From positions 1,209,001-1,273,000 of the forward strand of contig OX345652.1 of assembly GCA_947044365.1 (NCBI GenBank): a DNA stretch of 64,000 bases, written 5' to 3'. The stretch is from Petrosia ficiformis (lineage: Eukaryota > Porifera > Demospongiae > Haplosclerida > Petrosiidae). This document shows positions 15,116 through 61,639 of the stretch, piece by piece (the stretch's first letter is position 1; each line of letters opens with the position of its first letter). The notes beneath the pieces were generated by a model that saw only the letters and a program-made list of their open reading frames with translations, was not told the DNA's origin and searched no databases. The translations under genes and the position numbers were made by a program.

Positions 15116-15246
15116 AATTAATTTTATGACATATACATGTACATGTATTTATATGTAGTACATATGTGATTTTTGTTGTTACATACACCTAATGCCTTGT
15201 GTCAAGTTAGCCTGTTCATACAGGCATATGATATGTTGATTCGGAT

Positions 15247-37454: not shown

Positions 37455-40400
37455 ATGTCTAATGAAACAGTGGAAGAGATGTGCTTGAGGGCATTTGTGA
37501 ATGGGGAAAAAGAGGAAGCAATTAAATTTTTACCTTTTGTAGTCAATCCTCATGAACTAAAGGACTTTAATGAACAAACAATTCTTCATTTGGCATGTTA
37601 TCATGGATGGATCGAGATAGTAATGGAGCTCATTAATGACTATCAGTTTGATCCAATGTGTAAGGATTATGCTGGTTTTACTTTATTACATCAGGCATGT
37701 TCTCGAAAAGGAAATCTAAATATGGTACATTGCCTGATTAGTCAATTGCAGTGTAATCCAATGAGTAAGAACATTGATGGCAGCACGCCATTACATGTGG
37801 CTTGTAGAAATGGAGATATACAGATGGTTCAGTACCTTATTAGTCAATGTCGATGTAATCCAATGAGCAGGAGTTATGGAGGCAGTACTCCTCTACATAG
37901 TGCTTGTTGTTCTTCTCCACTGTGTCTTTCTGTCATTGAATATATTCTCTCTACTGGAAAGGTTGACCCTCTTGCTACAAATATACGTGGAATAACTCCA
38001 TTACAGATGGTGAATGAATCGAAAAGGAAAACTGTGAAGCAAATATTTGCTAAGTTTGGTAAAATCAAGATGTCTCATCCAGTTAATACCTATGTCAATG
38101 TAGTTCTATTGGGAAATCCTGGAGCAGGTAAGAGTACGTTAGCTCAGGTCATCATTCAGAGAGCTTGTGGTGTATTTGCTCCAATATGTGGTTTGTTTCA
38201 GTATGTAAAGGGAGTGGAGCTTTGTACAGCTGGCATAATTCCTAGTAAACTGGAACACAGAGAATTAGGAAATATTATCCTACACGATTCAGCAGGTGAA
38301 CCAGAATACTACTCCAGTCTCATTGCAGTCCTCGAGAATCTACTACATGGTTCTGCAGCTGTTTTCATTATTGTAGTTAGCTTATCCGATATGCAGGTAT
38401 GCAAACAGCTTCATCATTGGCTGACTATTGTTGAAAATGAATGTCACAAGGCATTAGATCAGTGTCATGTGATTACAGTAGCCAGTCATATTGATGAAGT
38501 CAACCAGAGGAATCTGCCAAATATCTACGGAGAGTTAGCAGAGATTTCATCATCACGACTTTCTCAACAGAGTATTGTCAATTGTGGTTTGGTACATCTT
38601 GATTGTCGTAAGCTTGTAGGTGGTGAGCTTTCATTCTTTACAACAACTTTATCCAGTGCATGTCAATCTATTCGTAGTACTAACACAAGAGAAATGAGTC
38701 TATATTGTCACATGTTGTACGCTTTACTTGAAGAGAAGAACAAGAGTGTCTACACACTAGACCAGTTAATGGCTATCTTGAGGGAATCAGATGAATATTG
38801 CCTACCCCAAGATATTGAGGAGATAACAGAGTTACTCTCCTCTCTTCATACAACTGGTCTGATTGTGTTTCTAAAGAATAACCACACACCTAGTAATTCA
38901 TGGGTAGTTGCTCGAAAGGAAATTCTTCTTACTGAAGTCAATGGAGTTCTGTTTGCTCCTGATAATTTTAAAGGACATCGTGACATAGCTAGTAATACAG
39001 GGATTATTAGTTTGTCCAGTCTATCTCAACTCTTCCCACAATATTCTTCAGATATGTTAGTTGTATTTCTTCAGTATATGGAACTGTGTCAGAAGATTAG
39101 TCAAGACTTCTTGACTTTCACTAATCTAATGATAAAAGAGGACGAATCATCAGATGAGATGAAGAGATTATTATTCTTCCCTGCTCTCATACGTGACACA
39201 GAGAGACCTCAAGAGATTCGTGAAACCTTTCAGTTCGGTTGGTGTCTTCAATGTTCTAATCCTCATCAGTTCTTTGTTCCTCGTTTCCTCCATGTTCTTC
39301 TTCTTCATCTAGCCTATTATTACGCTCTCCCAAAAAGTGAATCATCTATTCCAAATCTCCATCGTCTTTGTGATATATGGAAGAATGGAATCCATTGGTT
39401 AGACACAGAAGGAGTAGAGACTGTAGTGGAGTTAGTAGACAATAGTCAGTGTGTTGTACTCGTTATATCTTGTAAGCAAAGTTTGGAACACAACATGATA
39501 GAACATCGTAAGAATGTTGTTTCAGAGATCTTATCTCTTCAGAAACTTATATGCAGTAGTTTAGAAGTAGAGGAGTTTGTTATTGATCCTGATGACTTAG
39601 AGTATCCCATTATTAAACCATCAGAACGAACACTTTATAACATGAAGCTTATTAGCTCATGTATTATTCATCAGGAACCATGTGTTCTTGATAGTAAAGG
39701 ACATAAACATCGACTTGTACAAGAGCTACTACCATTTGAACCTTCTAATAACATATATTCTTCAGGAGGTAGGAGAGTGTCATTATTGGCAGGACGTGAC
39801 CCAGAGGTGAGCTACAATAGCAAGTTATATTGGCTATGATATGTTGATAATATTCATGTTATTATTCATATTTGTAGACACTAAGTGTATCAACTATTTC
39901 AGGAAGGTCCATAATGTCTCGGTTAGGTAAGTAGTATACTAACTTTTCCCTTACTCACTTAAGTGGAACATGTGACCAGATTGCTTAAACCAGGCTTATA
40001 GGATAAAATTGAGAATAAATTAAATTATGTTTTTGCAGGTTTCTAAACCCTCTAAGTGATAGACTTATTAAATTAGACAGCACCCTAAAATTATGGTGCT
40101 TCAACTAATTGACTGCAGAGTAGTTATTGCATGTATATATATATCCATAATAATCTGTACACCAACTGATGTTAAATCCATGTACTAACTAATAAATTCG
40201 ATATTTTAACTATTTTGTTGTATAATTATTTGTGTGTCTGTGTCAGAGTTTTTGATAAGCTCATATGGTGCACCATTGTTCCAAAGAGCTTTTTACACAG
40301 TTCTCTCTTTGGGCCAGATGGTGCAGTATTTATAATTATATTATCACTAACAGCATTAACTCATTGTTAATTGTCTCAAAATGAGTTGCCAATGGCGCAC

Positions 40401-43400
40401 ACACTAGCCATTGTTGAGCCAATTTGGCCCATGCTTCAAAACATATCAAAACCTCTGGTCTATGTATTCTGTGAAATTAATGGCGGTAGTTCAAACAAAT
40501 TATCAGTGGACCTCAAAGTATACATGGAAAAACAGTAGTAATTCTATAACTGTTGAGAAGACCTTAGTAATGGACTGCTTCTAACCAAAGACCTTAGTAG
40601 TGGACTGCTTCTAACCAAAGACCTTAGTAGTGGACTGCTTCTAACCAAAGACCTTAGTAGTGGGCTGCTTCTAACCAAATACAGTTAAGGTAGTGGCAGC
40701 TGTATGACCAACTGTGGCTCTAAGTATATTTCTGTCATGAAGGTTACTCGGGCAGAATAATAAATAAGGGGTAGGAAGATAATCCATCACAGGAAAAATG
40801 TGGAGAAACTCGTTGAAGTATTGATTATTATTATCTTGTTGCTAATAGTTATATTGCTTCCTCTCTTCTCACGTTTTAAATGTACTGTATATTGCTGTAA
40901 CATTTGTCTAGAATAGCTATTAATTAAAGTTTCTACAATTTGCTTTCTTCTGCTTCATTTTATCATGAATCTTTCATTTCGTTCATTGCACAGTGCAATT
41001 TAGATAATGCTGTGATTTCCTAGTTATTCCAATAGCTCTTCACAGTGTAAAAATCAAAGGTTTGATTAACCCAAACATAATTACTACAGTTATAATGATA
41101 TAGATGTTGTGGTCTACAGGGATATACATGCAAGACTTGTGGGCCAAAAACAGATGACATATAATTACTTCAAACATTAGTTAATCCACTCCCTAATGCC
41201 AACTTTTATATAATTATCTGCACCACAAAGTTTTCTGATGTGTGTCATGATAAATTTGTAAGGAAACATGACAGAAACTTAGTAGAATCCACTAGAAACA
41301 TGAAGACATCGCATGTTTCTCTAGAAAACATCTCATGTGTGTGTGTTTTCTTAAGTATCTACAGAGTTTCTGTCATGTTTTCTTACAGGTTTCTCTTGAC
41401 GTACATCAGGAAACCTCTTATTTTTGCAATGCTGGTTGCTATTTGAAATATTGGATAGTTGCTTGAAATTTAATTATGATATTAGGTATTGGAGGTTTGA
41501 AGGTCTACTTCTATTGTCCCACAAGTCATGTATGCAGTGGCGTAGCCAAGGGGGGCACACTGATACACATGCCCCTTCAACTGCTGACTGTGCCCTACCA
41601 ATCATGCCAAGTCAATTAGTCTCATGTTTGTGTTTTAACACCATACGTATTTCAGTAATGCGATAATTGTTTTAGCGCACCAGGGTATGCCCTACCATGC
41701 TTACTACTCTAGCTATGCTACTGCATGATGAATATATGTATAATATCTATGTAGATCACATGTTATTTATGATTTTAACTATGATAACCATTATTTTGTT
41801 AATTCTTTCACATTAACTTGCTATGGGAAATGTATATACCATAGTGTTCCCCGCAAAATTATTCAGATATCAATATGAAACATTGAGTATTTAGTGGTAT
41901 ATTCACTAAATGATAGAATACATAAGCCCAATACAATATAATTACATTAAATTATTGAGGGCATAATTTGAGTATAATAGGTCGAATAATGCAGTTATAC
42001 TCACTACATATATATGTGGAGCAACTAGGATAACATTTTTGGACTAAATGATAGTTTATTCTACAATAACCAATCAAATTGCAGATAACGTAATTAATGC
42101 ATATTTAACATGAGGATACCCCATCTAATAACAACAGATTTGGCGACAAAAGCTATCTCATTCATTTTCTTTTCAGAATCATCAGTGACATCACAACCTA
42201 ATTCTGTCACTCCTTCTCGACATGATATCACTCAATATGAAATATCTCATATCATGCCTCAAAGAAATGAGAAAGAACATGTGCCATCTCCTAAGAACAT
42301 ACTCACAAGACACTTGACTGATATAACTGATGTTGTGTTAGATCCAGAGAAATTAGCTAGTGATCTTCACTCTGCTGGTCTATTGAAATTTGATATAAAA
42401 GATAGAGTATTGTCTACATCAAGTTACCCTCGTTACGAGAAAGTCAGTATGTTACTGAATGATGTACGGAGGTTACTGAGAGGTGATAGCAATCATGAGA
42501 AATTAATAATATTTTGTGATGTACTGAAGAGACAGAATAATGAAACACTTACTGGAATTACACAAGATATGTTGAGAGAATTAGGTTAGTAAATTTATTA
42601 TACTATTTTATGTATTATACATTAACATGTATTAGAAGTTTAATTATATAGCTTTTTGTAATATATAGTTATTGTATTTAAGATTTCTGTGTGAGGATTC
42701 TGCATGTATCAATGATGTGGAGAAAAACAAAATGTTTAATTTTTAAATGAAGTAAAAGTATACCTCTGATGGCTTTATACTGAGATAGTGTTCTCATGTC
42801 TGAAACCCTTCAACCTATTATGAATGTAGTTACAATTTCCACTCTTCTTGCTACTTGTATGTCATTGGGTATTTCAGTTATAACAGTATTAGCTTTGATC
42901 AGCTTTCTTCCTTTATTATAAACACATTCCAGAGTATTAGTATATCCTTGTATAACAGGTTGTACCTAATTACTATGGGATTTACTATTATTATTAATAA
43001 TAGTATACCTTTAGCTGTTGTCTCTTCACACAGTGAGACTAGTCAGATCACTACAGGTATACTAATACAATCAACAATACTAATCTGTGTACTCACTAAC
43101 TCACTTTACTTTCAGGATCATCACACACATCAGAGTTAATTGTTCCTAATTCTCTTTTGAATATACTCACAAGACACTTGTCTGATATAACTGATGTTGT
43201 GTTAGATCCAGAGAAATTAGCTAATGATCTTCACTCTGCTGGTCTATTGAAATTTGATATAAAAGGTAGAGTATTGTCTACATCAAGTTACCCTCGTTAC
43301 GAGAAAGTCAGTATGTTACTGAATGATGTAAGAAGGTTACTGAGAGGTGATAGTGTTCGTGAGAAATTAATAATATTTTGTGATGTACTGAAGAGACAGA

Positions 43401-46048
43401 ATAATGAAACACTTACTGGAATTACACAAGATATGTTGAGAGATCTAGGTTAGTGAATTTATTATATTTATTTCATGTATTATGTATTGAAGATTGCTGT
43501 GTTAGGATTCTGCCCATATCAATAATGTGGAGAAAAACAAAATATATATAATATGTAAAATGAAGAAAAAGTATACTTCTGATAGTTTTGTAATGATCTT
43601 AGCATTCTCATGTCTGAACCCCTTCAATTTTCCACTCTCCTTCGTTTTTGTTTATCTTTGATTTTCAGTTATAACAGCATTAATTGTAGTTTCTATGATC
43701 AGCTTTCTCCCTTTGTACATGTGTAGCTTCAGCACATGTTCTATTTTGTGCCACATTGAACTGAGTCCATGGAATGATCTTTAACTATATAACTATGTAT
43801 GCAACGTGTATGTGACATAAACAGAGATATTTACAAATAATAGTTTCTTTTCATCTTGATCTATAATAATATTATTGACTAACATAATATGTACATACCA
43901 AATGACTAGTACATGTCATATCATCTGGTATATATAGTATATACTAAAACTTGATATAACCTTTATTATAACACCTGTTATTATAAGCACATTCCAGAGT
44001 ATTAGTATATCCTTGTATAACAGGTTGTACATAAGTACTATGGGATTTACTTATACTATGTTTAAAGCCTTATATATTCATTTTATGTCATGTGCTTTAC
44101 TAATAAATATACATTGTAGATCAAGATCAATATTGGTGTGGCAACAGCCAGTCATGCTGGACATTGTCTGATATATGTAGTGAATGTCTGGTAAATTGAA
44201 ACTAATCTGTACATGTATATGGGACAAGAGTGATGAAAATAGGTAGTCGGCTCAATGTTTCCACACCTCTGAAGATCAATTACCTAACAGGAAACAAATT
44301 GATATTGATTAATTATTGTTAATGTCACATTATAACCAAATGATGATTAAAATAGCTCATTAATAAATTTTAGTGAGATTAGTTCATATGTGGAAGAACC
44401 TACTTTTTAATAGTTATTAGTATATTCCTGTTATAATTTCTTTCAGTTAGAAGTATTATAGTAGTTATTATCTATACAATCCTTTCTCCTGTAGTCTAAA
44501 TTAACTGTACATTGTACTCATTAATAGCTGCTTCTATAATAATAGTATTTAAATATACTAATTATAAGATAATTGTTTTTTGTTGGATAGTGATAAAACT
44601 TACATATTTCTAATACAATCATCATCATGTTCATATTGACTACTTACCTTGAGGATCATTACTAGTGATAATTGACTAATTATTAGTTTTTATGTTGTGA
44701 TAGATTACATATATAGTTGTATACATAACATCATGCTACTATACACTACAGGATCATCAGATGTACACAGTAATAACAGTATACCTTTAGCTGTTGTCTC
44801 TTCACACAGTGAGACTAGTCAGATCACTACAGGTATACTAATACAATCAACAATACTAATCTGTGTACTCACTAACTCACTTTACTTTCAGGATCATCAC
44901 ACACATCAGAGTTAGCTGTTCCTAATTCTATCACTCCTACTCAACATGAATTACTGGACAGTACAGTACCATTACCTAATATCCAATCCATGACCTCTTC
45001 TACTTCACTTCATCGCACTACATCAAGTGTAGAAGATACTGAAAGAGACGAGAGAGAACATGAACGATCTCCTAAAAACATACCCACAAGATACTTGTCT
45101 GATATAACTGATGTTGTGTTAGATCCAGAGAAATTAGCTAATGATCTTCACTCTGCTGGTCTAATAACATTTCGTATTAAAGATAGAGTATTGACTACGT
45201 CAAGTTACCCTCGTTATGAGAAAGTCAGTATGTTACTGAATGATGTATGGAGGTTACTGAGAGGTGATAGTGATCGCGAGAAATTAATAATATTTTGTGA
45301 TGTACTGAAGAGACAGAATAATGAAACACTTACTGAAATTACACAAGATATATTGAGAGAATTAGGTTAGTGAAACGAAACTTTACTTGTACTCTCATGA
45401 TTTGATATCTTGACATCATTCAAAGGCTACATTGAAACTAATGTTTGTTAGTAACAAGTAATTATAATTTAAATGCAATAACTAATTGTTAACCAACTAG
45501 TGAACACAACTGTACTAACAATCTAACCTCAATTAAAGATATTATGTTATTGACCATATAAGGTTATCTCATCTTTTGTTCGGATTATCATAATAATAAT
45601 AGTAGGCTGTCTTTTCACACTAATGTCAGATCACTACAGGTATAGTTTAAGTAACATGTACATTTATGTTTGTATGTACATGTAAAGGTGTATGTAGTGT
45701 ACATGTATGCTGATATACACATACACCACACACACTGTTTAAAGAGAGGATACTACATTAAGCCCACTTGTAATTGTGCATACTAATTACTTACTAATCA
45801 CACATGCTAATGATTATACATAATTATCACACATGTCTCAGCTAAATCCAAGCATTCAAAAATCACTAAATTTAGTGGACTCAATTAATAGTATGCTTAA
45901 GGTACAAATGAAGCCAGTTACATTTATAAGCTAAAACTGATTATTAACCAACTAATTGTACCACAGCTGTACAATCTGACCTCAATTGAAGAGATTATGT
46001 TATTGACCATATATGGTTATCTCTTCTTTTGTTCTAGGATTATCATAA
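37455..46048 (+). CDS. Gene A: ankyrin-ROC-COR protein with up to three CARD/death-like modules
   Basis: Exons 37455-39806, 39878-39926, 42177-42584, 43116-43448, 44752-44832, 44892-45365 and 46038-46048 (GLS, stop); all junctions after the first are phase 1. Full chain would be 1235 residues. Exon 1 (784 codons): about five ankyrin repeats (residues 30-205; e.g. GSTPLHVACRNGDIQMVQYL), then a ROC GTPase with P-loop GNPGAGKS (220-227), switch-II motif HDSAGEPEYY (about 277-286) and a G4-like ASHID (about 342-346), then COR with SLYCHMLYALLEEK, TGIISLSSLSQLFPQYSSDM and FFPALIRDTERPQEI. ROC-COR proteins are GTP-dependent switches; ANK-ROC-COR-Death is the DAPK1 order without the kinase. Distal exons encode CARD-like bundles. 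Without splicing at 39807 the frame stops after 10 more codons. Paralogue of B and C. Number of modules used per transcript is unknown. Immune or death signalling is inference. Confidence 0.85.
39878..39926 (+). other. Gene A linker exon 2
   Basis: Acceptor TTTGTAG, donor GTAAGT; encodes TLSVSTISGRSIMSRL, phase 0 in, phase 1 out. Positional equivalent of ILSEPTVLGRLISHK in B and C. Confidence 0.7.
40242..40356. mobile_element. Small palindromic MITE (family M3, copy 2)
   Basis: Inverse of 21744-21866: TTTTTGATAAGCTCATATGG, TTTGGGCCAGATGGTGCAG, ending ATTATCACTAACAGC. Confidence 0.7.
40561..40680. repeat. 4 x 30-bp tandem repeat
   Basis: Four copies of ACCTTAGTAGTGGACTGCTT-CTAACCAAAG with two substitutions, in the large intron of gene A. 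Confidence 0.95.
41258..41392. repeat. Foldback: GTAAGGAAACATGACAGAAAC
   Basis: GTAAGGAAACATGACAGAAAC near 41261-41281 and the inverse GTTTCTGTCATGTTTTCTTAC near 41369-41389; GAAACATG/CATGTTTC pairs inside. Hairpin-capable intron sequence. Confidence 0.75.
41535..41723. mobile_element. Decayed hAT-like MITE, CAGTGGCGTAGCCAAG end
   Basis: Left end CAGTGGCGTAGCCAAGGGGG; inverse right end CAGTAGCATAGCTAGAG, 13 of 17 identical. CAGTGGCGTAGCC-type ends are common in hAT-derived repeats of invertebrates. Flanking 8-mers CATGTATG and CATGATGA match only in the first four bases, so the target duplication is decayed or absent. Confidence 0.5.
42177..42584 (+). other. CARD/death-like module A1 (exon)
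   Basis: Phase 1-1 exon, 408 nt. A disordered lead (TSQPNSVTPSRHD) is followed by a helical module: ILTRHLTDITDVVLDPEKLA, SDLHSAGLLKFDIKDRVLST, YEKVSMLLNDVRRLLRGD, LIIFCDVLKRQNNETLTGIT. The pattern (L-x-x-x-L-x-x-x-GL, K-x-x-x-LL-x-x-V, F-x-x-VL) is like CARD/death-fold six-helix bundles. Exon ends GAATTAG then GTTAGT: donor, or stop TAG if unspliced. Confidence 0.7.
42990..43058 (+). pseudogene. Decayed SHSETSQITT linker exon in gene A
   Basis: Keeps IPLAVVSSHSETSQITT coding and the donor GTATAC, but its 5' part with the GATCATCAGATG start is replaced by ATTATTAATAATAG. Using that AG would give phase 1 reading into a stop, so the exon is probably skipped. Confidence 0.6.
43116..43448 (+). 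other. CARD/death-like module A2 (exon)
   Basis: 333 nt, phase 1-1, short lead (SSHTSELIVPNS) then the same helical module as A1 with few changes (GRVLST; RGDSVREK; ends LRDLG). Same donor/stop overlap at the end. Confidence 0.7.
44752..44832 (+). other. Linker exon SSDVHSNNSIPLAVVSSHSE (gene A)
   Basis: 81 nt, phase 1-1; continues TSQITT. Identical in protein to the copy at 53869-53949 in B, and nearly so to 60259-60339 in C. Serine-rich and probably a flexible linker. Confidence 0.7.
44892..45365 (+). other. CARD/death-like module A3 (exon)
   Basis: 474 nt, phase 1-1. Longer lead with TTSSVEDTERDEREHERSP, then YLSDITDVVLDPEKLANDLH, SAGLITFRIKDRVLTTSSYP and the rest of the bundle. Closest in layout to B2 and C1. 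Donor/stop overlap at the end. Confidence 0.7.
45580..45640 (+). pseudogene. Decayed terminal exon copy
   Basis: GGATTATCATAATAATAATA followed by GTAGGCTGTCTTTTCACACT and GTCAGATCACTACAG: a decayed copy of the SHSETSQITT exon; the acceptor AG is lost (TTCGG). An intact-acceptor version lies at 46038. Confidence 0.5.
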
Positions 46049-47940: not shown

Positions 47941-47947
47941 AATAATT

Positions 47948-48098
47948 ATTAATAACTGTTAGCTAAAGGTCATTAGTCAGACATTTGTCTCATTTTATAT
48001 TCTCTTCTAGTTCTATTATATACAGTAAGTGATATTTATTTCTTGTGATTATAATCATCTGTATTATTATTTATCTTTTCATTATCAGTTAGTGAATA
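47948..48098 (+). promoter_or_regulatory. Conserved promoter and leader intron of gene B
   Basis: GTTAGCTAAAGGTCATTAGT, CAGACATTTGTCTCATTT and TTCTATTATATACA precede a 64-nt leader intron (48025-48088; GTAAGTGATA ... TTATCAG). The same blocks stand before gene C (55935-56088), so promoter and leader were duplicated with the gene. Confidence 0.6.
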
Positions 48099-51000
48099 AT
48101 GTCTGATGATACAGTCAAACAGAAGTGTTTGAGGGCATTTGAGAATGGGGAAAAAGAGGAAGCTACTAGATTATTATTTGTTGTAGTTAGTCCTCGTACA
48201 CTGAAGTACTATGAACAAAGGACAATTTTATTTTACGCATGTTATTATGGATGGATTGATATAGTGATGGAGCTCATCAATGAATATCAATTAGACCCCA
48301 AGTGTAGAGATAGTAATGGCGACACTACACTACATACTGCATGTCGTCGAAAGGGAAATCTACATATTATTCAGTATCTGATTAATGAATGTCGATGTGA
48401 TCCAATGAGTAAGAACAACTATGGCAACACTCCACTACATAATGCTTGTGAAAGTGGAGATATAGAGGTGGTTCAGTTCCTGATTGTTGAATGTCGATGT
48501 GATCCGATGAATAAGAACAACTATGGCAACACTCCACTACATAGAGCTTGCGAAAGTGGAGATATAGAGATGGTTCGGTACATGATTGGTGAATGTCGAT
48601 GTGATCTGATGAGTGAGAACAATGACGGCAACACTCCACTACATAGTGCATGTTATCAAAAGGGAAATCTACATATTATTCAGTATCTGATTAATGAATG
48701 TCGATGTGATCCGATGAGTAAGAACAATGATGGTGACACTCCACTACATAGTGCTTGCGAAAGTGGAGATATAGAGATGGTTCGGTACATGATTGGTGAA
48801 TGTCGATGTGATCCGATGAGTAAGAACTACTATGGCAACACTCCACTACATAGAGCTTGCGAAAGTGGAGATATAGAGATGGTTCGGTACATGATTGGTG
48901 AATGTCGATGTGATCTGATGAGTGAGAACAATGACGGCAACACTCCACTACATAGTGCATGTTATCAAAAGGGAAATCTACATATTATTCAGTATCTGAT
49001 TAATGAATGTCGATGTGATCTGATGAGTAAGAACAATGATGGTGACACTCCACTACATAGTGCTTGCGAAAGTGGAGATATAGAGATGGTTCGGTACATG
49101 ATTGGTGAATGTCGATGTGATCCGATGAGTAAGAACAACTATGGCAACACTCCACTACATAGAGCTTGCGAAAGTGGAGATATAGAGATGGTTCGGTACA
49201 TGATTGGTGAATGTCGATGTGATCTGATGAGTGAGAACAATCGTGGCAACACTACACTACATAGTGCATGTTATCGAAAGGGAAATCTACACATTATTCA
49301 GTACCTGATTAATGAATGTCGATGTGATCTGATGAGTAAGAACAGATTTGACAACACTCCACTACATATAGCTTGTCAATATGGAGATATAGAGATGGTT
49401 CAGTTCCTGATTAGTGAATGTCGATGTGATCCCATGTGTAAGAACAAGGTTGGCAACACTCTACTACACAAGGCTTGTTATTTTCGTAATATTCCTGTTG
49501 TTGAATACATTCTCTCTACTGGCAAAATTGATCCACTAGTTAGAAATATACACGGAGAGACTCCATTAATGATCACAGATAGTCAGCAGAGGAAAGATTT
49601 AAAGAAAGTATTTGCTAAGTTTGGTAAAATCAAGATGTCTCATCCAGTTAATTCCTATGTCAATGTAGTTCTATTGGGAAACCCTGGAGCAGGTAAGAGT
49701 ACGTTAGCTCAGGTTATCATTCAGAGAGCTAGTGGTGTGTTTGCTTCAATACGTGGTTTGTTTCAATATGTAAAGGGAGTGGAGCTTTGTACAGCTGGCA
49801 TAATTCCTAGTAAACTGGAACATAGAGAATTAGGAAATGTTATCCTACATGATTTAGCAGGTCATCCAGAATATTACTCCAGCCACATAGCAGTCCTCGA
49901 GAATCTATTACATGGTTCTGCAGCTGTTTTCATTATCGTTGTTAGCTTATCCGATTTACAAGTATGCAAACACCTTCATCATTGGCTGAGTATTGTTGAG
50001 AATGAATGTCACAAGGCATTATGTCAGTGTCATGTGATTACGGTAGCCAGTCATATTGATGAAGTTAACCAGAGGAATCTACCAAATATCTACAGAGAGG
50101 TAGCAGAGATTTCATCATCACGGCTTTCTCAACAGAGTATTGTGAACTGTGGTTTGGTACATCTTGATTGTCGTAAGATTGTAGGTGGTGAGCTTTCATC
50201 ATTTACAACAACTTTATCCAGTGCATGTCAATCTATTCGTAGTACTAACACAAGAGAAATGAGTCTGTATTGTCACATGTTGTACGCTTTACTTGAAGAG
50301 AGGGAAGAGAGTGTCTACACACTAGATCAGTTAATGGCTATCTTGAGGGAATCAGAAGAATATTGCCTACCACAAGTCACGGAGGAGATAACAGAGTTAC
50401 TCTCCTCTCTTCACACAACTGGTCTTATTGTGTTTCTAAAGAACAACCGTGCACCTAGTAATTCATGGGTAGTTGCTCGAAAGGAAGTTCTTCTTACTAA
50501 AGTAAATGGAGTTGTATTTGCTCCTGATAATTTTAAAGAACATTGCGACATAGCTAGTAATACAGGGATAATTAGTTTGTCCAGTCTTTCTCAACTTTTC
50601 CCACAATATTCTTCAGATATGTTAGTTGTATTTCTTCAGTATATGGAACTGTGTCAGGAGATTAGTCAAGAATTCTTGGCTTTCACTAATCTGATGACAA
50701 AAGAGGAAGAATCATCAGATGAGATGAAGAGATTATTATTCTTTCCTGCTCTCATACGTGACACAGAAAGACCTCAAGAGATTCGTGAAACCTTTCAGTT
50801 CGGTTGGTGTCTTCAATGTTCTAATCCTCATCAGTACTTTGTTCCTCGTTTCCTCCATGTTCTTCTTCTTCATCTAGCCTATAATTATGCTCTCCCAAAA
50901 AGTGAATCTTCTATTCCAAATCTCCATCGTCTTTGTGATATATGGAAGAATGGAATCCATTGGTTAGACACAAGAGGAGTAGAGAGTGTAGTGGAGTTAG

Positions 51001-54000
51001 TAGACAATAGTCAGTGTGTTATACTCCTTATGTCTTGTAAACAAGGTTTGGAACACAATATGATAGAACGTCGTAAAGAGGTTATTTCAGAGATCCTATC
51101 TCTTCGAAAGCTAATATGTTGTAGATTAGAGGTAGAGGAGTTTGTGATTGATCCCGATGACTTAGAGTATCCCATTATTAAACCATCAGAACGAACACTT
51201 TATAATATGAAGCTTATTAGCTCATGTATTATTCATCAGGAACCATGTGTTCTTGATAGTAAAGGACATAAACATCGACTTGTACAAGAGCTACTACCAT
51301 TTGAACCTTCTGATAACATATATTCTTCAGGAGGCAGGAGAGTATCTGTATTTGCAGGACGTGATCCAGAGGTGAGCTACAGTAGTTCTATGTAAATCGT
51401 GGTTTATTCAGGCCTGTTGCATAATTAAGTGATTTTTTAATGTTCATATTATTAATCATTGTTATAGATACTGAGTGAACCAACTGTATTGGGAAGACTT
51501 ATATCTCATAAAGGTATACTATACACTGTGTATATAGTCACCTTGACCTCACTAGTGATAATTGATTAATTATCAGTTCTTATGTAGTGATAGATAATGT
51601 GTTTATATAATGTAATTATACACTGTATGACTTCCATACACTATAGGATCATCAGATGATAATATACCTTTAGCTGTTGTCTCTTCACACAGTGAGACTA
51701 GTCAGATCACTACAGGTATACTAATACAATTAACAATACATGTACTCACTTAACTCACTTTACTTTCAGGATCATTACACACATCAGAGTTAACTGTTCC
51801 TAATTTTCCTATAAACATACTCACAAGACACTTGTCTGATATAGCTGATGTTGTGTTAGATCCAGAGAAATTAGCTAATGATCTTCACTCTGCTGGTCTA
51901 ATAACATTTTATATTAAAGATAGAGTATTGACTACATCAAGTTACCCTCATTATGAGAAAGTCAGTATGTTACTGAATGATGTATGGAGGTTACTGAGAG
52001 GTGATAGTGATCGTAAGAAATTAATAATATTTTGTGATGTGCTGAAGAGACAGAATAAGGAAACAATTACTGGAATTACACAAGTTCTATTGAGGGAATT
52101 AGGTTAGTGAATTTATTATATTTATTTTATGCATTATACATTAACTTATTTTAGAGGTTTAATTATATATAGCTTTTTGTAATACATAGTTATTGTTATA
52201 CAAGTGTCAGGATTCTGCTTGTATCAATTATGTGCAAAATATTTAATATTTAATATTTAATTTTTAATTGAAGTAAAGGTATACCTCTGATGGCTTTCTA
52301 ATGATCTTTTCTAGATAGTGTTCTCATGTCTGAAGCCCTTCAGCCTATTATGAATGTAGTTACAATTCACTCTTCTTGCTATTTGTATATCATTGGGTTT
52401 TCAGTATTAGTTACAGTTTCTATGATTAGCATTCTTCCTTTGTACATGTGTAGCTCCAGCACATGTTGTTTTGTTTAACGTTTAACTGAGTCTCTGGAAT
52501 GACATTGCTTCTTTAAGTATGTATGCAACGTGTATATGACACAGACAGAGATATTTACAAGTAATTGTTTGTTTTGATCTTGATGTATAATTATTGAGTA
52601 ATATAATATGTACATGTCATATCATGTGGTATATATAGTATATACTAAAATAATGTAATTATAAGTTGATATAACCTTTATTATAACACATGTTATTATA
52701 AACACATTCCAGAGTATTAGTATATCCTTGTATAACAAGTTGTACCTAATTACTATAGGATTTACTTACTATGCCTTGTGTATTCATTTCATGTCATGTA
52801 CTTTACTAATAAATATACATTGTAGATCAAGATCAACAGTGGTGTGGAAACAGCCAGACATGCTGGACATTATCCTATAAATGCAGTGAACATGAAACTA
52901 ATCTGTAGGCAAAGTGTATGGGGAGCAGGACAAGAGTGATGTAAATAGGTCAAAATATCCTGTAGTTGGCTATATGTTTCCACACCCCTGAATATCAATT
53001 ACCTAACAGGAAACAAATTGATATAGATTTACTCTCAGGCAAATAATAATTGTTAATGTTACATTATAACCAAATGAAGATTTAAATAGCACATTAATTT
53101 AGTGAGATTAATTCATAAGTTGGAAGATCCTACTTTTTAAATAGTTCTTAGTATATTCCTGCTATACCGTATAGCCGGAAATATTGTCGGAGAAAAAACT
53201 TTGGCGGTTTGGCAGTGTAAACTTAAAATCGTCAATATTAAATCCGTAAAATTAAAAAATACGGCACAAAACCGCATGCGATCATCGGCATGTTGAAGAG
53301 TAGAGCGATACTGCTTGAAGTGTACTCTGCTATCTGCAAAGGAGCTCAAGGAAGTCAACAAGAAGGTCCAGCAGTGCCATAACGTATATATATGTACGTA
53401 CACATGTTCAATAAACCCCACCCACACATAAACTTTAATGATAATCCGTCAAAATTAACTCCGTAAAATTTTAATTTCCCCTATTTCAAGGCAAATTCCG
53501 CCAATATTTCCGGCTATACGGTAGTTTCTTTCAGTTAGAAGTACTATAGTAGTTATTATCTATACAATCCTTTCTCCTGTAGTCTAAATTAACTGTACAT
53601 TGTATTCATGTTCTATTTGATCAAAGCTCCCTGGAATGATACTTAATTAATAGCTGCTTCTATAATAAAATAATTAGTATTTTAATATACTAATTATATG
53701 ATAGTTGTTTTTTGTTTGATAGTGAAAAATTTCTAATACAATCATCATCATGTTCATTACTTACCTTGAGGATCATTACTAGTGATAATTGACTAATTAT
53801 TAGTTTTTATGTTGTGATAGATTACATATTTAGTTGTATACATAACATCATGCTACTATACACTACAGGATCATCAGATGTACACAGTAATAACAGTATA
53901 CCTTTAGCTGTTGTCTCTTCACACAGTGAGACTAGTCAGATCACTACAGGTATACTAATACAATCAACAATACTAATCTGTGTACTCACTAACTCACTTT

Positions 54001-54702
54001 ACTTTCAGGATCATCACACACATCAGAGTTAACTGTTCCTAATTCTATCACTACTACTCAACATGAATTACTGGACAGTACAGTAACATTACCTAATATC
54101 CAGTCCATGGCCTCTCACACTACAACAAGTGTAGAAGACTCTGAAAGAGACGAGAGAGAACATGTACCATCTCCTAAGAACATACTCACAAGACACTTGT
54201 CTGATATAGCTGATGTTGTATTAGATCCAGAGAAATTAGCTAATGATCTTCACTATGCTGGTCTAATAACATTACATATTAAAGATAGAGTATTGACTAC
54301 ATCAAGTTACCCTCGTTATGAGAAAGTCAGTATGTTACTGAATGATGTATGGAGGTTACTGAGAGGTGATAGCAATCGTGAAAAATTAATAATATTTTGT
54401 GATGTACTGAAGAGACAGAATAATGAAACACTTACTGGAATTACACAAGATATATTGAGAGAATTAGGTTAGTGAAAGAATACTTTACTAGTACTCTCGT
54501 GATTTGAAATCTTCACATCTTTCAAAGGCTACATTGAATCTAATGTTTGTTAGTAACAAGTAATTATAATTTAAGTCCAATAACTAATTGTTAACCAACT
54601 AGTGAACACAACTGTACTAACAATCTGACCTCAATTAAAGATATTATGTTATTGACCATATATGGTTATCTCATCTTTTGTTCTTTTATAGGATTATCAT
54701 AA
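48099..54702 (+). CDS. Gene B: ankyrin-ROC-COR protein with two CARD/death-like modules
   Basis: Exons 48099-51371, 51468-51513, 51647-51715, 51770-52102, 53869-53949, 54009-54467, 54692-54702 (GLS, stop); 1423 residues if all are used. Exon 1 (1091 codons): about 14 ankyrin repeats (residues 40-500), many in near-identical triplets (YGNTPLHRACESGDIEMVRY; DGNTPLHSACYQKGN; DGDTPLHSACESGD), then ROC with P-loop GNPGAGKS (527-534), HDLAGHPEYY (Ser of A and C replaced by Leu) and ASHID, then COR. C-terminal exons carry linkers and two CARD-like bundles. Spacing and sequence show a whole-gene duplicate of A and C. Like its paralogues it would act as a GTP-controlled cytoplasmic scaffold sensing something through the ankyrin array; ligand unknown. 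Confidence 0.87.
48510..49440 (+). repeat. 309-bp higher-order ankyrin repeats in gene B
   Basis: Three-ankyrin units recur at 309 bp: the block ACTCCACTACATAGAGCTTG starts at 48531, 48840 and 49149. Units differ by only a few bases. The 89-codon antisense frames over this region are shadows of the repeat. Confidence 0.9.
51468..51513 (+). other. Gene B linker exon 2
   Basis: Encodes ILSEPTVLGRLISHK, phase 0 in, phase 1 out; acceptor GTTATAG, donor GTATAC. Identical in C (60081-60126). Confidence 0.75.
51770..52102 (+). other. CARD/death-like module B1 (exon)
   Basis: 333 nt, phase 1-1. LSDIADVVLDPEKLANDLHS, AGLITFYIKDRVLTTSSYPH and YEKVSMLLNDVWRLLRGDSD; ends ITQVLLRELG. Same length as A2. 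Donor/stop overlap at the end. The preceding 51647-51715 exon is a shorter linker (SSDDNIPLAVVSSHSETSQ). Confidence 0.7.
53165..53523. mobile_element. TA-flanked inverted-repeat element inserted in a gene B intron
   Basis: Ends TACCGTATAGCCGGAAATAT and the inverse TACCGTATAGCCGGAAATAT agree over about 26 bp. The paralogous intron of gene A has the uninterrupted site (TATTCCTGTTATAATTTCTTTC at about 44422-44443), while B has CCTGC-TA[element]-GTTTCTTTC, so it inserted after the duplication. 359 bp, more CpG than the surroundings; the 96-codon minus frame is not recognisable. Confidence 0.88.
54009..54467 (+). other. CARD/death-like module B2 (exon)
   Basis: 459 nt, phase 1-1, with the acidic/basic lead TTSVEDSERDEREHVPSPKN, then LSDIADVVLDPEKLANDLHY, AGLITLHIKDRVLTTSSYPR, YEKVSMLLNDVWRLLRGDSN. 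Donor/stop overlap at the end; terminal exon GLS-stop at 54692. Confidence 0.7.
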
Positions 54703-55930: not shown

Positions 55931-55934
55931 TTAA

Positions 55935-56088
55935 TTAAATAACTGTTAGCTAAAGGTTGGTCATTAGTCAGACGTTTGTCTCATTTCATTGTGTTCTGTT
56001 CTACTTCTATTATATACAGTAAGTGATATATATATTTATTTCTTGTGATTATAATTATCTGTATTATGTTTTCATTATCAGTTAGTGA
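55935..56088 (+). promoter_or_regulatory. Conserved promoter and leader intron of gene C
   Basis: GTTAGCTAAAGGT, CATTAGTCAGACGTTTGTCT and TTCTATTATATACA, then a 63-nt leader intron (56019-56081), as before gene B. Confidence 0.6.
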
Positions 56089-59000
56089 ATGATGTCAGTC
56101 AAAGAGGTGAAATGTTGGAGGGCATTTGAGAATGGGGAAAAAAAGGAAGCGATTAGATTGTTACCTTTTGTAATTAATCCTCATAGACTGAAGGGCTATG
56201 ACCAAAGGACACTTCTTCATTGGGCATGTTATCATGGATGGATCGATATAGCGATGAAGCTCATTAATGAATATCAATTAGATCCAAAGTGTAGAGATAG
56301 TGATGACAAAACTCCACTACATTATGCATGTTCTCAAAATGGTAATTTACAAGTTATACGGTACCTGATTAATGAATGTCGATGTGATCCGATGAGTAAG
56401 AACAGGAATGAAAACACTCCACTACATGAAGCTTGTAGCTGTGGAGATATAGAGATGGTTCAGTACCTGATTGGTGAATGTCGATGTGATCTGATGAGTA
56501 AGAACAACAATGGCTACACTCCACTACATTTTGCATGTTCTCGAAAGGGAAATCTACGTATTATTCAGTACCTGATTAATGAATGTCGATGTGATCCAGT
56601 GAGTAAGAATGGATCAGACACAACTCCACTACACTTTGCTTGTAAATATAATAATCTAGAGATGGTTCGGTACTTAATTGGTGAATGTCGATGTGATCCG
56701 ATGAGAAAGAACAGATCGAACGACACTCCACTACACTTTGCTTGTAAATACAATAATCTAGAGATGGTTCGGTACTTGATTGGGGAATGCCAATGTGACC
56801 CGATGAGTAAGAACAGATCGAATGATACTCCACTACATTTTGCATGTTCTCAAAAGGGAAATTTATGTATTATTCAGTACCTGATTAATGAATGTCGATG
56901 TGATACGATGAGTAAGAACAGATTTGACGACACTCCACTCCATGTGGCTTGTAGAAGTGGAGATATAGAGATGGTTCGGTACCTGATTGGTGAATGCCGA
57001 TGTGATCCGATAAGAAAGAACAGATCAAACAACACTCCACTACACTTTGCTTGTAAATACAATAATCTAGAGATGGTTCGGTACTTGATTGGGGAATGTC
57101 GATGTGATCCGATGAGTAAGAACAGATCGAATGATACTCCACTACATTTTGCATGTTCTCAAAAGGAAAATTTACATATTATTCAGTACCTGATTAACGA
57201 ATGTCGATGTGATACGATGAGTAAAAATAATGATGGTGACACTCCACTGCATGTTGCTTGTAGAAATGGAGATATAGAGATAGTTCGGTACCTGATTGGT
57301 GAATGTCGATGTGATCCGATGAGTAAGAACAGATCAGACAACACTCCACTAAATTTAGCATGTTCTCAAAAGGGAAATTTATGTATTATTCAGTACCTGA
57401 TTAATGAATGTCGATGTGATCTGATGAGTAAGAATAATGATGGTGACACTCCACTGCATGTTGCTTGTAGAAATGGAGATATAGAGATAGTTCGGTACCT
57501 GATTGGTGAATGTCGATGTGATCCAATGAGTAAGAACAGATCAGACAACACTCCACTAAATTTAGCATGTTCTCAAAAGGGAAATTTATGTATTATTCAG
57601 TACCTGATTGATGAATGTCGATGTGATCCGATGAGTAAGAATAATGATGGTGACACTCCACTGCATGTTGCTTGTAGAAATGGAGATATAGAGATAGTTC
57701 GGTACCTGATTGATGAATGTCGATGTGATGCGATGAGTAAGAATAATGATGGTGACACTCCACTACATGTTGCTTGTAGAAATGGAGATATAGAGATGGT
57801 TCGGTACCTGATTGGTGAATGTCAATGTGATCCTATGAGTAAGAACATATTAGACAACACTCCACTACACGTTGCTTGTAGAAATGGAGATATCAATATG
57901 GTTCGGTACCTGATTAATGAATGTCAATGTGATCCGACGTGTAAGAACAGATTTGACAACACTCCACTACACTTCGCTTGTAAATATAATAATCTAGAGA
58001 TGGTTCGGTACTTGATTGGAAAATGTGAATGTAATCTGATGAGTAAGAACAATGATGGCAACACTCCTCTACATGTAGCTTGTATTGATATCCCTAATAT
58101 TCCTGTTGTTGAATACATTCTTTCTACTGGCAAAATTGAACCACTAGTTAGAAATATACACGGAGAGACTCCATTAATGATTGCAGCAGATAGTTGGTGG
58201 AGAGAAAATTTAAAAAAAGTATTTGCTAAGTTTGGTAAAATCAAGATGTCTCATCCAGTTAATTCCTATGTCAATGTAGTTCTATTGGGAAATCCTGGAG
58301 CAGGTAAGAGTACGTTAGCTCAGGTTATCATTCAGAGAGCTAGTGGTGTGTTTGCTTCAATACGTGGTTTGTTTCAATATGTAAAGGGAGTGGAGCTTTG
58401 TACAGCTGGCATAATTCCTAGTAAACTGGAACATAGAGAATTAGGAAATGTTATCCTACATGATTCAGCAGGTCATCCAGAATATTACTCCAGCCACATA
58501 GCAGTCCTCGAGAATCTACTACATGGTTCTGCAGCTGTTTTCATTATCGTAGTTAGCTTATCCGATATACAAGTATATAAACACCTTCATTATTGGCTGA
58601 CTATAGTTGAGAATGAATGTCACAAGGCATTAGATCAGTGTCATGTGATTACGGTAGCCAGTCATATTGATGAAGTTGACCAGAGGAATCTGCCAAATAT
58701 CTACAGAGAGTTAGCAGAGATTTCATCATCACGACTTTCTCAGCAAAGTATTGTGAACTGTGGTTTGGTACATCTTGATTGTCGTAAGCTTGTGGGTAGT
58801 GAGCTTTCATCATTTACAACAACTTTATCCAGTGCATGTCAATCTATTCGTAGTACTAACACAAGAGAAATGAGTCTATATTGTCACATGTTGTACGCTT
58901 TACTTGAAGAGAAGGAAGAGAGTGTCTACACACTAGACCAGCTAATGGGTATCTTGAGGAAATCAGATGAATATTGCCTACCACAATTCATTGACGAGAT

Positions 59001-61639
59001 AACAGAGTTACTCTCCTCTCTTCATACAACTGGTCTGATTGTGTTTCTAAAGAATAACCACACACCTGGTAACTCATGGGTAGTTACTCGAAAGGAAGTT
59101 CTCCTTACTGAAGTAAATGGAGTTCTGTTTGCTCCAGATAATTTTAAAGAACATCGTGACATAGCTAGTAATACAGGGATTATTAGTTTATCCAGTCTTT
59201 CTCAACTCTTCCCACAATATTCTTCAGATATGTTAGTTGTATTTCTTCAGTATATGGAACTGTGTCAGGAGATTAGTCAAGACTTCTTGACTTTCACTAA
59301 TGTGATGATAAAAGAGGAAGAGTCATCAGATGAGATGAAGAGGAGATTATTATTCTTTCCTGCTCTGATACATGACACAGAGAGACCTCGAGAGATTCGT
59401 GAAACCTTTCAGTTCGGTTGGTGTCTTCAATGTTCTAATCCTCATCAGTTCTTTGTTCCTCGTTTCCTCCATGTTCTTCTTCTTCATCTAGCCTATTATT
59501 ACGCTCTCCCAAAAAGTGAATCTTCTATTACAGATGTCAATCGTCTTTGTGATATATGGAAGAATGGAATCCATTGGTTAGACACAAGAGGAGTAGAAAC
59601 TGTGGTAGAGTTAGTAGACAATAGTCAGTGTGTTGTACTCCTTATGTCTTGTAAACAAGGTTTGGAACGTAACATGCTAGAACGTCGTAAGGAGGTTATT
59701 TCAGAGATCTTACCTCTTCAGAAACTTATATGTTGTAGATTAGAGGTAGAGGAGTTTGTTATTGATCCTGATGACTTAGAGTATCCCATTATTAAACCAT
59801 CAGAACGAACACTTTATAATATGAAGCTTATTAGCTCATGTATTATTCATCAGGAACCATGTGTTCTTGATAGTAAAGGACATAAACATCGACTTGTAGA
59901 AGAGCTACTACCATTTGAACCTTCTAATAACATATATTCTTCAGGAAGTAGGAGAGTGTCTGTATTTGCAGGACGTGATCCAGAGGTGAGCTACAGTAGT
60001 TTTATGTAAATCGTGGTTTATTTAGGCCTGTTGCATAATTAAGTGATTTTTTAATGTTCATATTATTAATCATTTTATAGATACTGAGTGAACCAACTGT
60101 ATTGGGAAGACTTATATCTCATAAAGGTATACTATACACTGTGTATATAGTCACCTTGACCTCACTAGTGATAATTGATTAATTATCAGTTCTTATGTTG
60201 TGATAGATAATGTGTTTATATAGTAATTATTATACACTGTGTGACTACTACACTACAGGATCATCAGATGTACACAGTAATAATAGTATACCTTTAGTTG
60301 TTGTCTCTTCACACAGTGAGACTAATCAGATCACTACAGGTATACTAATACAATCAACAATACTAATCTGTGTACTCACTAACTCACTTTACTTTCAGGG
60401 TCATCACACACATCAGGGGTAACTGTTCCTAATTCTATCATTACTACTCAACATGAATTACTGGACAGTACAGTACCATTACTTAATATCCAATCCATGA
60501 CCTCTTCTACTTCACTTCATCATGCTACAACAAGTGTAGAAGATACTGAAAGAGACGAGAGAGAACATGTACAGTCTCCTAAGAACATACTCACAAGACA
60601 CTTGTCTGATATAACTGATGTTGTGTTAGATCCAGAGAAATTAGCTAATGATCTTCACTCTGCTCGTCTAATAACATTTCATATGAAAGATAGAGTATTG
60701 ACTACATCAAGTTATTCTCGCTACGACAAAGTAAGTAAGTTAGTTAACGATGTACGGAGGTTACTTAGAGGTGATAGTGATCGTGAGAAATTAATAACAT
60801 TTTGTGATGTACTGAAGAGACAGAATAATGAAACACTTACTGGAATTACACAAGATATGTTGAGAGAATTAGGTTAGTAATACATGTAATGTGATGACTT
60901 GTTGGGTGGGAACTTTAGATTTAACAAACCACTTCTGTATAATCTCACACAAGTACAACCACATTATATCATAATTTGTGTTGCAACTGCTTAATATTAT
61001 AGTGTATTGTTGAAGTGGTTTATTTAATGTCATAATACCATCCTGACCTTTATATTTGTTTTGACATCACTGCATGTTACTTCATTTTATTAGTTCTTGT
61101 GTTCTGTTGAGTCATCTTATGATTGCTGGTCGAATGTATATATTATATTTATTTGCTTGTGTCACAAACATGTTATACTCAGTGTTGTTAAGGAAGTTTT
61201 GTCATTCCAGGGTTGTCTTAATTTTGGTGTGGCACATAAATAAATATGCACTCATAGACCACCAGGATGAAATCAGCTTGTGGAAACTAGTTATAGCTAT
61301 AATACTTATACAAGAACTACTAAAAGAATAGAATAACAATTAACTATAATTGGGCCTTCCTCATATATGTGTGTGTGTGTATCGTACATAATACTGCATG
61401 TAAAAAGTATCTGGACATGCTGCTAGCTGACCAGTGTCAGGCTCACTCCACAATCTCACAGCATTTTTCTAGTAATTATGTTGTTATGTTTCAGATATGA
61501 CAGTCATCGGGAATGGGATTATTTGTCTCCATTACCTATATAACAGCTTAGGTGCTTTAATACTATAGTAATACTGATAATTCACTTCCTGTTTGTTTAG
61601 CTTATCTTTTGTTCATACACTACAGGATTATCACAGTAA
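56089..61639 (+). CDS. Gene C: ankyrin-ROC-COR protein with one CARD/death-like module
   Basis: Exons 56089-59985, 60081-60126, 60259-60339, 60399-60872, 61626-61639 (GLSQ, stop); 1503 residues. Exon 1 (1299 codons): about 20 ankyrin repeats (residues 30-710; e.g. DTPLHVACRNGDIEMVRYLI, DNTPLNLACSQKGNL), ROC with P-loop GNPGAGKS (734-741), HDSAGHPEYY and ASHID, then COR. Start is MMSVKEV; Met2 is also possible and B and A begin with a single Met. Downstream a single CARD-like exon follows the linkers. Longest array and fewest effector exons of the three paralogues. Function as for A and B; no ligand can be named. Confidence 0.87.
56570..57960 (+). repeat. Higher-order ankyrin repeats in gene C
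   Basis: Two repeat types alternate: a 33-codon xGDIEMVRYLIGECRCDPMSK type and a 34-37-codon CSQKGNLCIIQYLINECRCD type. A three-repeat 309-bp unit recurs (compare 56576-56845 with 56885-57154), and a two-repeat unit of about 207 bp is repeated between 57220 and 57620. Confidence 0.85.
60399..60872 (+). other. CARD/death-like module C1 (exon)
   Basis: 474 nt, phase 1-1, lead TTSVEDTERDEREHVQSPKN, then LSDITDVVLDPEKLANDLHS, ARLITFHMKDRVLTTSSYSR, YDKVSKLVNDVRRLLRGDSD. The otherwise invariant AGL is ARL here, and YEKVSMLLND is YDKVSKLVND, so it is the most diverged module. Donor/stop overlap kept. Confidence 0.7.

Follow-up and report, generated by a model that had tools for sequence, protein, structure and literature searches.

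We begin with the question of whether three neighbouring genes of the sponge Petrosia ficiformis belong to a receptor family that works like the animal NOD-like receptors (NLRs) while being built on a different switch. Accounts of innate sensing in animals centre on receptors of the NACHT, Toll and RIG-I types. The window, a stretch of 64 kb, contains three paralogous giant ORFs in tandem on the + strand (gene A, 37455-39839, 795 aa; gene B, 48099-51395, 1099 aa; gene C, 56089-60009, 1306 aa), all with the motifs GNPGAGKS and ASHID, which bears out an earlier note on this DNA that had claimed three paralogues with a giant exon. Pfam recognises the ankyrin repeats of the three exon 1 proteins very strongly (E 5e-27 to 5e-155). 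Read from the sequence, the plan begins at the N-terminus with an ankyrin array whose length varies greatly, continues with a ROC GTPase and a COR-like region, and has its death-fold domain on a terminal exon of its own, in keeping with the NLR-like plan on a ROC-COR switch that had been proposed. We lean towards the answer that the genes belong to a large family of ROCO-type intracellular receptors working like NLRs.

The identity of the ROC-COR region has to be considered with some care. Of the Ank, Roc and COR profiles by which the earlier note had proposed to check the genes, only Ank gives a clear match, and for Roc and COR the check is ambiguous on the window proteins alone: Pfam Roc scores 20-21 bits (E 4e-4 to 9e-4), short of its cut-off of 27, and Pfam COR has no match in the three exon 1 proteins, so that the assignment leans on further tests. 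Aligned by hhalign with an LRRK-like ROC from the same genome, the ROC region reaches a probability of 95 (E 2.2e-8); from ROC into COR the probability is only 63 (E 7e-5). The best PDB matches found by Foldseek for the gene A exon 1 model are LRRK1 (E 1.5e-12) and LRRK2 (1e-10), both as long alignments with high rmsd, that of LRRK1 spanning 660 columns at an rmsd of 18. The GTPase carries the G1, G3 and G4 motifs, and Pfam Roc is annotated in 42 of the best 120 of 1284 database homologues. Searching PDB sequences directly with the ROC-COR region gives nothing significant, and a profile search of A1 gives only ankyrin-bearing chains among the 60 of 557 matches listed. The rows listed by VIA-align for exon 1 cover the ankyrin part alone, which makes that comparison uninformative on ROC-COR, pro or con. 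We regard the ROC GTPase domain as established, which places the proteins among the ROCO proteins as far as ROC is concerned, and the COR domain following it as likely. COR-B is above the Pfam cut-off in two of 74 homologous loci and just below it in a third, and the AlphaFold2 model is weak across much of the COR region (pLDDT 31-63 blocks, residues 551 to 650).

We turn our attention to the effector exons (Table 1). Six CARD-type ORFs lie in the window, all downstream of giant exons. In the AlphaFold2 model the gene C CARD exon has six helices at a pLDDT of 92, and its best PDB structure matches are the caspase-9/Apaf-1 and CARD8 CARDs; the predicted structure is a six-helix death fold closest to CARDs, as the earlier note had supposed. 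Pfam CARD is matched at E<=1 by 4 of 34 family members (best E 0.0074, 16.7 bits against 23.9), and a search of PDB sequences with the CARD profile gives five weak matches (best E 0.03), none of them a CARD. Because none of the 34 members tested passes the Pfam cut-off, Pfam-based CARD counts in sponges may overlook whole families. The CARD profile alone matches 429 database proteins, and no Pfam domain is found among the 120 of these that are listed. Death-type exons in the window were also considered, and the idea is unsupported: the Death-like C-terminal regions of three Amphimedon homologues, compared with the window by tblastn, give no convincing Death match.

Table 1. Positions of the exons and CARD-coding ORFs of genes A, B and C in the window.
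Feature	Position	Strand	Source
Gene A exon 1, 4 recognised ankyrin repeats, ROC, COR-like	37455..39806	+	ORF, Pfam, AlphaFold2, Foldseek
Gene A region, CARD ORF 1 then stop; CARD 42311-42586	42098..42589	+	
Gene A region, CARD exon 2, acceptor TTTCAG; CARD 43175-43450	43116..43453	+	
Gene A region, small linker exon 3, 81 nt, phase 1 to 1	44752..44832	+	
Gene A region, CARD exon 3; CARD 45092-45367	44892..45370	+	
Gene B exon 1, 13 recognised ankyrin repeats, ROC, COR-like	48099..51371	+	ORF, Pfam
Gene B exon 2, 46 nt, phase 0 to 1	51468..51513	+	
Gene B exon 3, 69 nt, phase 1 to 1	51647..51715	+	
Gene B proximal CARD exon incl. stop; CARD 51829-52104	51770..52107	+	
Gene B distal exon 3 copy, phase 1 to 1	53869..53949	+	
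Gene B distal CARD exon incl. stop; CARD 54194-54469	54009..54472	+	
Gene C exon 1, 19 recognised ankyrin repeats, ROC, COR-like	56089..59985	+	ORF, Pfam
Gene C exon 2, 46 nt, identical to gene B exon 2	60081..60126	+	
Gene C exon 3, 81 nt, phase 1 to 1	60259..60339	+	
Gene C CARD exon incl. stop; CARD 60599-60874	60399..60877	+	

The spliced models of genes B and C stay open, with AG/GT borders, matching phases and a CARD as the final exon. In gene A, exon 1 ends between GAG and GTGAGC in phase 0, and the linker exon 2 is not found in the sequence; the exon phases claimed before hold for genes B and C. The domain order ankyrin, ROC, likely COR and CARD agrees with what had been read earlier (Pfam for ankyrin, hhalign and Foldseek for ROC, the CARD-fold exons in the models of B and C). 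So does the modularity of the effector exons. The distal CARD exon of gene B is a frame-compatible alternative end and gives this gene two interchangeable ends.

The next question is how far the family extends. The ROC-COR family is far larger than the window, with at least 74 loci of the window-type ROC-COR and at least 222 loci with ROC-COR signatures in the genome. All genome counts, these included, are minimum figures, since scoring covered only some of the candidates (ROC-COR 74/136, COR-A 150/357, CARD 150/374 and 150/371, NACHT 103/249, Death 150/380). The COR-B search gave only 9 matches out of 25 candidates, and the 136 raw Roc matches (150/472 candidates scored) are not used as a ROCO count because Rab-like GTPases are among them. 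Of the 74 loci, 35 are followed within 4 kb on the same strand by a CARD, 10 by a Death domain and none by both, and for 29 neither was detected; the terminal death-fold exon codes for a CARD at the window genes and for Death at other loci. On the opposite strand there is no CARD within 3 kb and no Death in the 4 kb window. A same-strand CARD lies within 3 kb upstream of ROC in 5 of the 74 loci and an opposite-strand CARD within 10 kb downstream in 2; in tandem clusters such strays may belong to neighbours. Close pairs of COR-A/B and CARD (<=12 kb) number only 9 among 150 CARD matches; in all 9 the CARD follows on the same strand.

All named homologues among the best 120 of 1284 database matches, five in number, come from the sponge Amphimedon queenslandica. 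Two of these models, P0059 and P0093, provide an independent source in which ANK-ROC-COR and a Death-like region share one chain; their UniRef name is 'Death domain-containing', with Pfam Death at E 0.04, below the cut-off. For the CARD part of the spliced gene C fragment, no protein of ~275-875 aa bearing the CARD was found (145 candidates, none with E<=0.001), perhaps because many database records resemble single-exon ORFs. It may be asked whether the repertoire is largely turnover debris, the exon 1 proteins acting alone and the CARD cassettes being separate or decaying, as the missing exon 2 of gene A, the stops present in some of the 74 loci and the 29 loci with no effector match could suggest. 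This is improbable, since junctions and phases are conserved in genes B and C, the effector exons lie downstream on the same strand with none opposite within the 3 and 4 kb windows, and the Amphimedon models hold both parts.

Genes with ROC-COR about 90% identical have from 3 to 19 recognised ankyrin repeats, and the nearest listed relative of gene C, 96% identical in ROC-COR, yet has 9 against 19. The arrays of genes B and C are near-identical internally: 363 of 506 and 396 of 713 array residues, respectively, fall in self-matches above 85% per 100 aa, and gene B repeats a 309-nt unit in 3.7 copies with 93% matches. DAPK1 has ankyrin repeats, ROC, COR and a C-terminal death fold, and the present genes share this plan minus the kinase; they could then be DAPK-like housekeeping regulators of apoptosis, autophagy or the cytoskeleton, expanded in tandem without a recognition role. 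We consider this quite unlikely. Here we have a large variable family of at least 74 loci, two kinds of terminal exon and arrays that change at nearly constant ROC-COR, all unlike housekeeping genes, and a kinase match at E<=1 is absent by Pfam from the three exon 1 proteins and four of the six CARD ORFs, which would leave the ORFs scanned outside the DAPK family as defined by its protein kinase domain.

If the arrays recognise ligands, variation may be looked for at the contact positions, which we take to be the six positions randomised in DARPins and presume to apply to these arrays. With repeats not spaced exactly 34 residues dropped, pN at contact positions is 0.37 against 0.12 elsewhere for genes B and C together and 0.40 against 0.12 for L041, a distant paralogue (pN/pS 0.78 at contacts). 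Gene B alone, with 6 repeats, gives 0.108 against 0.057, equalled by 15% of random sets, and a pN/pS of 0.41 at contacts against 1.19. An earlier version of the test that included capping repeats gave a pN/pS of 1.16 at contacts against 0.59 for 34-aa repeats, positions 4, 10 and 15 also excluded, and 0.81 against 0.45 for 35-aa repeats. Variation concentrates on the presumed contact positions in gene C and L041, and not significantly in gene B alone; the gene B result counts against the recognition reading, and structural constraint by itself can leave contact positions the variable ones.

High internal repeat conservation has been reported for fungal NLRs and as rare in metazoan repeats (PMC4986451, in the text available), and the present arrays, with their length differences between paralogues, match this fungal pattern. 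Recognition could then serve self-nonself discrimination rather than defence against microbes, with arrays differing between individuals and incompatible contact leading to CARD- or Death-driven death, as in fungal NLR incompatibility. Allorecognition of this kind is unlikely in our judgement, as nothing in the window links the genes to cell-contact recognition.

Returning to ROCO-type receptors that work like NLRs, we infer a ligand, GTP switching, transcripts and an immune or cell-death function. The ankyrin groove would bind a microbial, viral or self ligand, the binding would alter the GTP or dimer state of ROC-COR, and this change would expose or cluster the C-terminal CARD. The CARD would nucleate homotypic assembly of CARDs; its partner would probably be an adaptor or caspase also used by the CARD-NACHT receptors of the genome, and the outcome would be defence signalling or cell death. 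New specificities would arise by repeat duplication and homogenisation, and new outputs by swapping the final exon.

The literature already contains ROCO candidate immune receptors as well as ROCO proteins that bear CARD or death domains. Trichoplax is reported to have at least 17 such genes, with ROC-COR joined to CARD or death domains in an early animal (cited in PMC11378527); the available text mentions no CARD shared with NACHT receptors. Brown algae, in the part of the 2024 survey available (PMC11378527), have 9-47 ROCO genes per species, called more than in other species, with LRR-ROC-COR the sole ROCO architecture found; these expanded genes with diversifying repeats and exon shuffling are proposed immune receptors. 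There the repeats are LRRs shuffled as exons, whereas here they are ankyrin repeats within one exon and it is the effector exon that is exchanged. Bacterial AP-GTPase-COR conflict systems likewise combine fast-evolving repeats, ROC-COR and a variable C-terminal domain, but their repeats are LRRs and their C-terminal domains fall into at least 24 types, where the present family has ankyrin and death folds (PMC8195603, available text). The Death/TRADD-N expansion of Amphimedon (357 proteins, often with ankyrin repeats) is another large sponge death-fold repertoire; it is TRADD-N based with the death fold N-terminal, and ROC-COR is not described in the text available (PMC8195603).

We finally compare the family with the NLRs of the same genome. 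Both unite a repeat sensor, an NTP switch and a death fold; here, however, ROC-COR stands for NACHT and ankyrin for LRR, and the CARD is C-terminal rather than N-terminal. NACHT in the window proteins reaches at best E 0.026 and 14.8 bits against a cut-off of 26.7, over the P-loop only, so that the proteins, NLR-like in their predicted workings, would not be NLRs. The earlier note saw ROC-COR used instead of NACHT, and this has to be corrected to alongside NACHT: the genome has at least 103 NACHT matches, and the CARD family of the window, found at no fewer than 224 loci by two genome searches, immediately precedes NACHT on the N-terminal side in 28 pairs, with no CARD downstream of NACHT or reversed in the windows counted. 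NLRs and ROCO genes thus have one CARD family in common, at opposite protein ends. The scale of the family, the effector exchange and this common CARD appear to be new.

One CARD family at opposite ends of both systems would therefore mean convergence on one hub. We put forward tentatively, at somewhat less than even confidence, that two parallel NLR-like systems (CARD-NACHT and ankyrin-ROC-COR-CARD/Death) use one cryptic CARD family and one signalling hub, the ROCO arm being a diversifying repertoire of hundreds of loci with homogenising arrays and exchangeable effector exons, and ROC-COR a general innate recognition switch in animals. If true, hundreds of ROC-COR loci, part of them with an NLR-type CARD, would form a second switch class, the GTPase module would tie the repertoire to human LRRK2, DAPK1 and MFHAS1, and there would be a direct route to asking by what means animals attach different receptors to a single death-fold hub. 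Free jumping of CARDs between NLR and ROCO genes is unsupported. In an unrooted CARD tree of 37 hand-picked rows labelled by their neighbours, the NLR CARDs, of which 10 were sampled, group in a single clade with support of 100/100, so that one exchange suffices.

Genes A, B and C lie in tandem on the forward strand and, as had been claimed for three paralogues sharing a giant exon, the first exon of each is an open reading frame that encodes an ankyrin array and, after it, a P-loop GTPase bearing the motifs GNPGAGKS, DxAG and ASHID. The arrays hold 4 (A), 13 (B) and 19 (C) repeats by a count of TxLHxAC-type motifs, which leaves out more degenerate repeats. Exon 1 ends with GAG/GTGAGC at phase 0 in all three genes. 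The models of B and C, predicted from sequence, continue with three exons, one of 46 nt (phase 0 to 1), one of 69 or 81 nt (1 to 1) and the CARD exon (1 to stop); their introns have AG/GT borders and the spliced proteins are open over 1241 and 1500 aa. Gene B carries two CARD cassettes, either of which gives an in-frame end under predicted splicing. The small effector exons with matching phases that the earlier note described are thus borne out in the predicted B and C models, while exon 2 of gene A was looked for and not found. Partial or degenerate copies of linker exon 3 near gene A suggest decayed cassettes.

Amphimedon queenslandica, the sponge to which all named homologues belong (5 of 120 among the matches listed), provides protein models of another source. 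In four of them (P0059, P0062, P0093 and P0104) a single chain holds ankyrin repeats, the GTPase and COR region and, at its C-terminus, a Death-like part; Pfam Death reaches E 0.04, below the cut-off, in two of these four.

Is the GTPase region truly ROC-COR? The Pfam Roc profile gives 20-21 bits on the window proteins against a cut-off of 27, COR has no match in them, and Pfam by itself does not settle the identity. An AlphaFold2 model of gene A exon 1 (71-row alignment, mean pLDDT 71, pTM 0.47) has a G domain of alternating strands and helices, and its two top PDB matches are LRRK1 (E 1.5e-12) and LRRK2 (E 1e-10), although each alignment is long and its rmsd high (18 and 12). In hhalign the window ROC matches LRRK-like ROC domains found elsewhere in this genome (probability 95, E 2.2e-8), with SHIDEV paired with THLDEV; when the target is a second class of ROC-COR, the alignment extends from ROC into COR, at a probability of 63 only. 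Pfam Roc is annotated in 42 of the 120 homologues among the matches listed, and COR-B exceeds the Pfam cut-off within two homologous loci. The Pfam profiles are thus ambiguous for the window proteins alone; on all these lines together we regard ROC as established and COR as likely.

We turn to the genome, where the ROC-COR of gene A as query finds 84 pieces, which make up 74 loci, a lower bound. Over the 4 kb that follow on the same strand, 35 loci have a CARD match, 10 a Death match (the query, a C-terminal region from Amphimedon, gave 107 matches in all), none both and 29 neither. Of the 34 loci whose CARD lies at most 3 kb away, 16 have two CARD matches. The opposite strand shows neither a CARD (up to 3 kb) nor a Death exon (up to 4 kb) at any of the 74 loci, and an opposite-strand CARD at two loci when the range is 10 kb. 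At five loci a same-strand CARD precedes ROC by at most 3 kb; where genes stand in tandem, it may be that of a neighbour. Loci with CARD and loci with Death are interleaved in one cluster on contig C10, and this alternation suggests exchange of the terminal exon within one gene family. The COR-A matches above cut-off (150 scored out of 357 candidates; 149 loci once merged) and the 74 loci together give at least 222 distinct ROC-COR loci, among which there may be pseudogenes and haplotypes that were not collapsed. Contig C3 is crowded with a second, larger ROC-COR class (68 of the 150 COR-A matches).

Two CARD searches combined give at least 224 CARD loci. A NACHT match stands directly downstream on the same strand for 28 of the 150 CARD matches of one search, with a gap of 349-386 bases in 20 of the 28 pairs, and in the windows counted no CARD follows NACHT or points the other way. 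One CARD family thus takes the C-terminal end of ROCO genes and the N-terminal end of NACHT genes. Ten NLR CARDs sampled form a single supported clade in a 37-row tree. NACHT genes form large clusters on C10 and C2. In L044 a Death-like ORF, a CARD of this family and, just past the end of the locus, NACHT come in succession; the CARD ORF has no Pfam match at E<=0.1. ORFs in L039 and L044 that end in GDVESNPGPVG, which we take to resemble the 2A ribosome-skipping motif, lie just upstream of the Death-like and CARD ORFs of NACHT genes.

The ankyrin arrays are tandem repeats inside the exon (in B a unit of 309 nt, 3.7 copies, 93% matches). Array residues in self-matches above 85% per 100 aa number 363 of 506 in B, 396 of 713 in C and 0 of 199 in A. 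Twelve relatives among the matches listed (P0002-P0013), which could be alleles, paralogues or genes from other species, share 89-96% ROC-COR identity with a window gene, and the repeats recognised in them number 3 to 11; the one closest to C (96%) has 9 repeats against 19. At repeat positions 2, 3, 5, 13, 14 and 33, the contact positions of DARPins, pN in B and C together is 0.370 against 0.120 elsewhere (pN/pS 1.11 against 0.55), a contact value reached by 0.26% of random six-position sets. The corresponding pN is 0.374 against 0.116 in gene C, and 0.397 against 0.120 in the distant paralogue L041 (pN/pS 0.78 against 0.44); in gene B alone the excess is not significant (pN 0.108 against 0.057, pN/pS 0.41 against 1.19). 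This variation is consistent with a binding groove that has diversified, although a comparison of pN does not formally test for positive selection.

The anatomy of the receptor genes, COR detail and gene A excepted, is solid. The most likely mechanism that we infer is NLR-like, in which a ligand would act on the ROC-COR switch and the CARD would become exposed. The finding gains weight from its genome context: the scale, a terminal exon that is CARD at some loci and Death at others, and a CARD family common with NACHT receptors.

Published work offers several comparisons. Brown algae have 9-47 ROCO genes per species, reported as exceeding other species, and these are proposed to be immune receptors whose LRR exons are shuffled; in Trichoplax there are 17 or more, and CARD and death domains occur in some of them (PMC11378527). 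In bacteria, AP-GTPase-COR proteins join repeats that evolve fast to C-terminal domains of at least 24 kinds, and in Amphimedon most of the 357 TRADD-N proteins bear death folds (PMC8195603). Some sea anemone genes combine Roc/COR with TIR, and others with TIR plus kinase and death domains (PMC5094078). High internal repeat conservation is found in many fungal NLRs and is rare (0.8%) among metazoan repeats (PMC4986451). A 2026 study that used Pfam on Dysidea avara counts 39 genes with CARD and 230 with NACHT (PMC12909245). We found no description of a sponge ROCO expansion among the open-licence papers searched, which is weak evidence of absence.

Among other features in the window, the hAT transposon piece lies upstream of the receptor cluster, and the tRNA-Ser gene is overlapped by an ORF at 15240 reading GSSVGRA.

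Coordinates of the receptor genes and other features (contigs and loci of genome G000, 191.2 Mb in 29 contigs)
Feature	Sequence	Position	Strand	Evidence
Window	G000:C17	1209001-1273000
Diaphanous-type formin exons	window	3076-5180	-	Drf_FH3, Drf_GBD
hAT transposase C-terminal dimerisation region	window	10972-11562	+	Pfam E 3e-14
tRNA-Ser (GGA) gene	window	15246-15321	+
NHL-repeat protein, just upstream of receptor cluster	window	34112-35125	-	E 3e-25
Gene A exon 1	window	37455-39806	+
Linker exon 3 copy, partial	window	about 42995-43056	+
Linker exon 3 copies, short, degenerate	window	about 45619, about 46074	+
Gene B exon 1	window	48099-51371	+
Gene C exon 1	window	56089-59985	+
Interleaved CARD and Death loci	G000:C10	6.33-6.74 Mb
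NACHT cluster	G000:C10	4.8-6.6 Mb
NACHT cluster	G000:C2	2.35-2.99 Mb
ORF ending in GDVESNPGPVG	L039	1404-1751	-
ORF ending in GDVESNPGPVG	L044	5000-5368	+
Death-like ORF	L044	5427-5771
CARD ORF	L044	5989-6201
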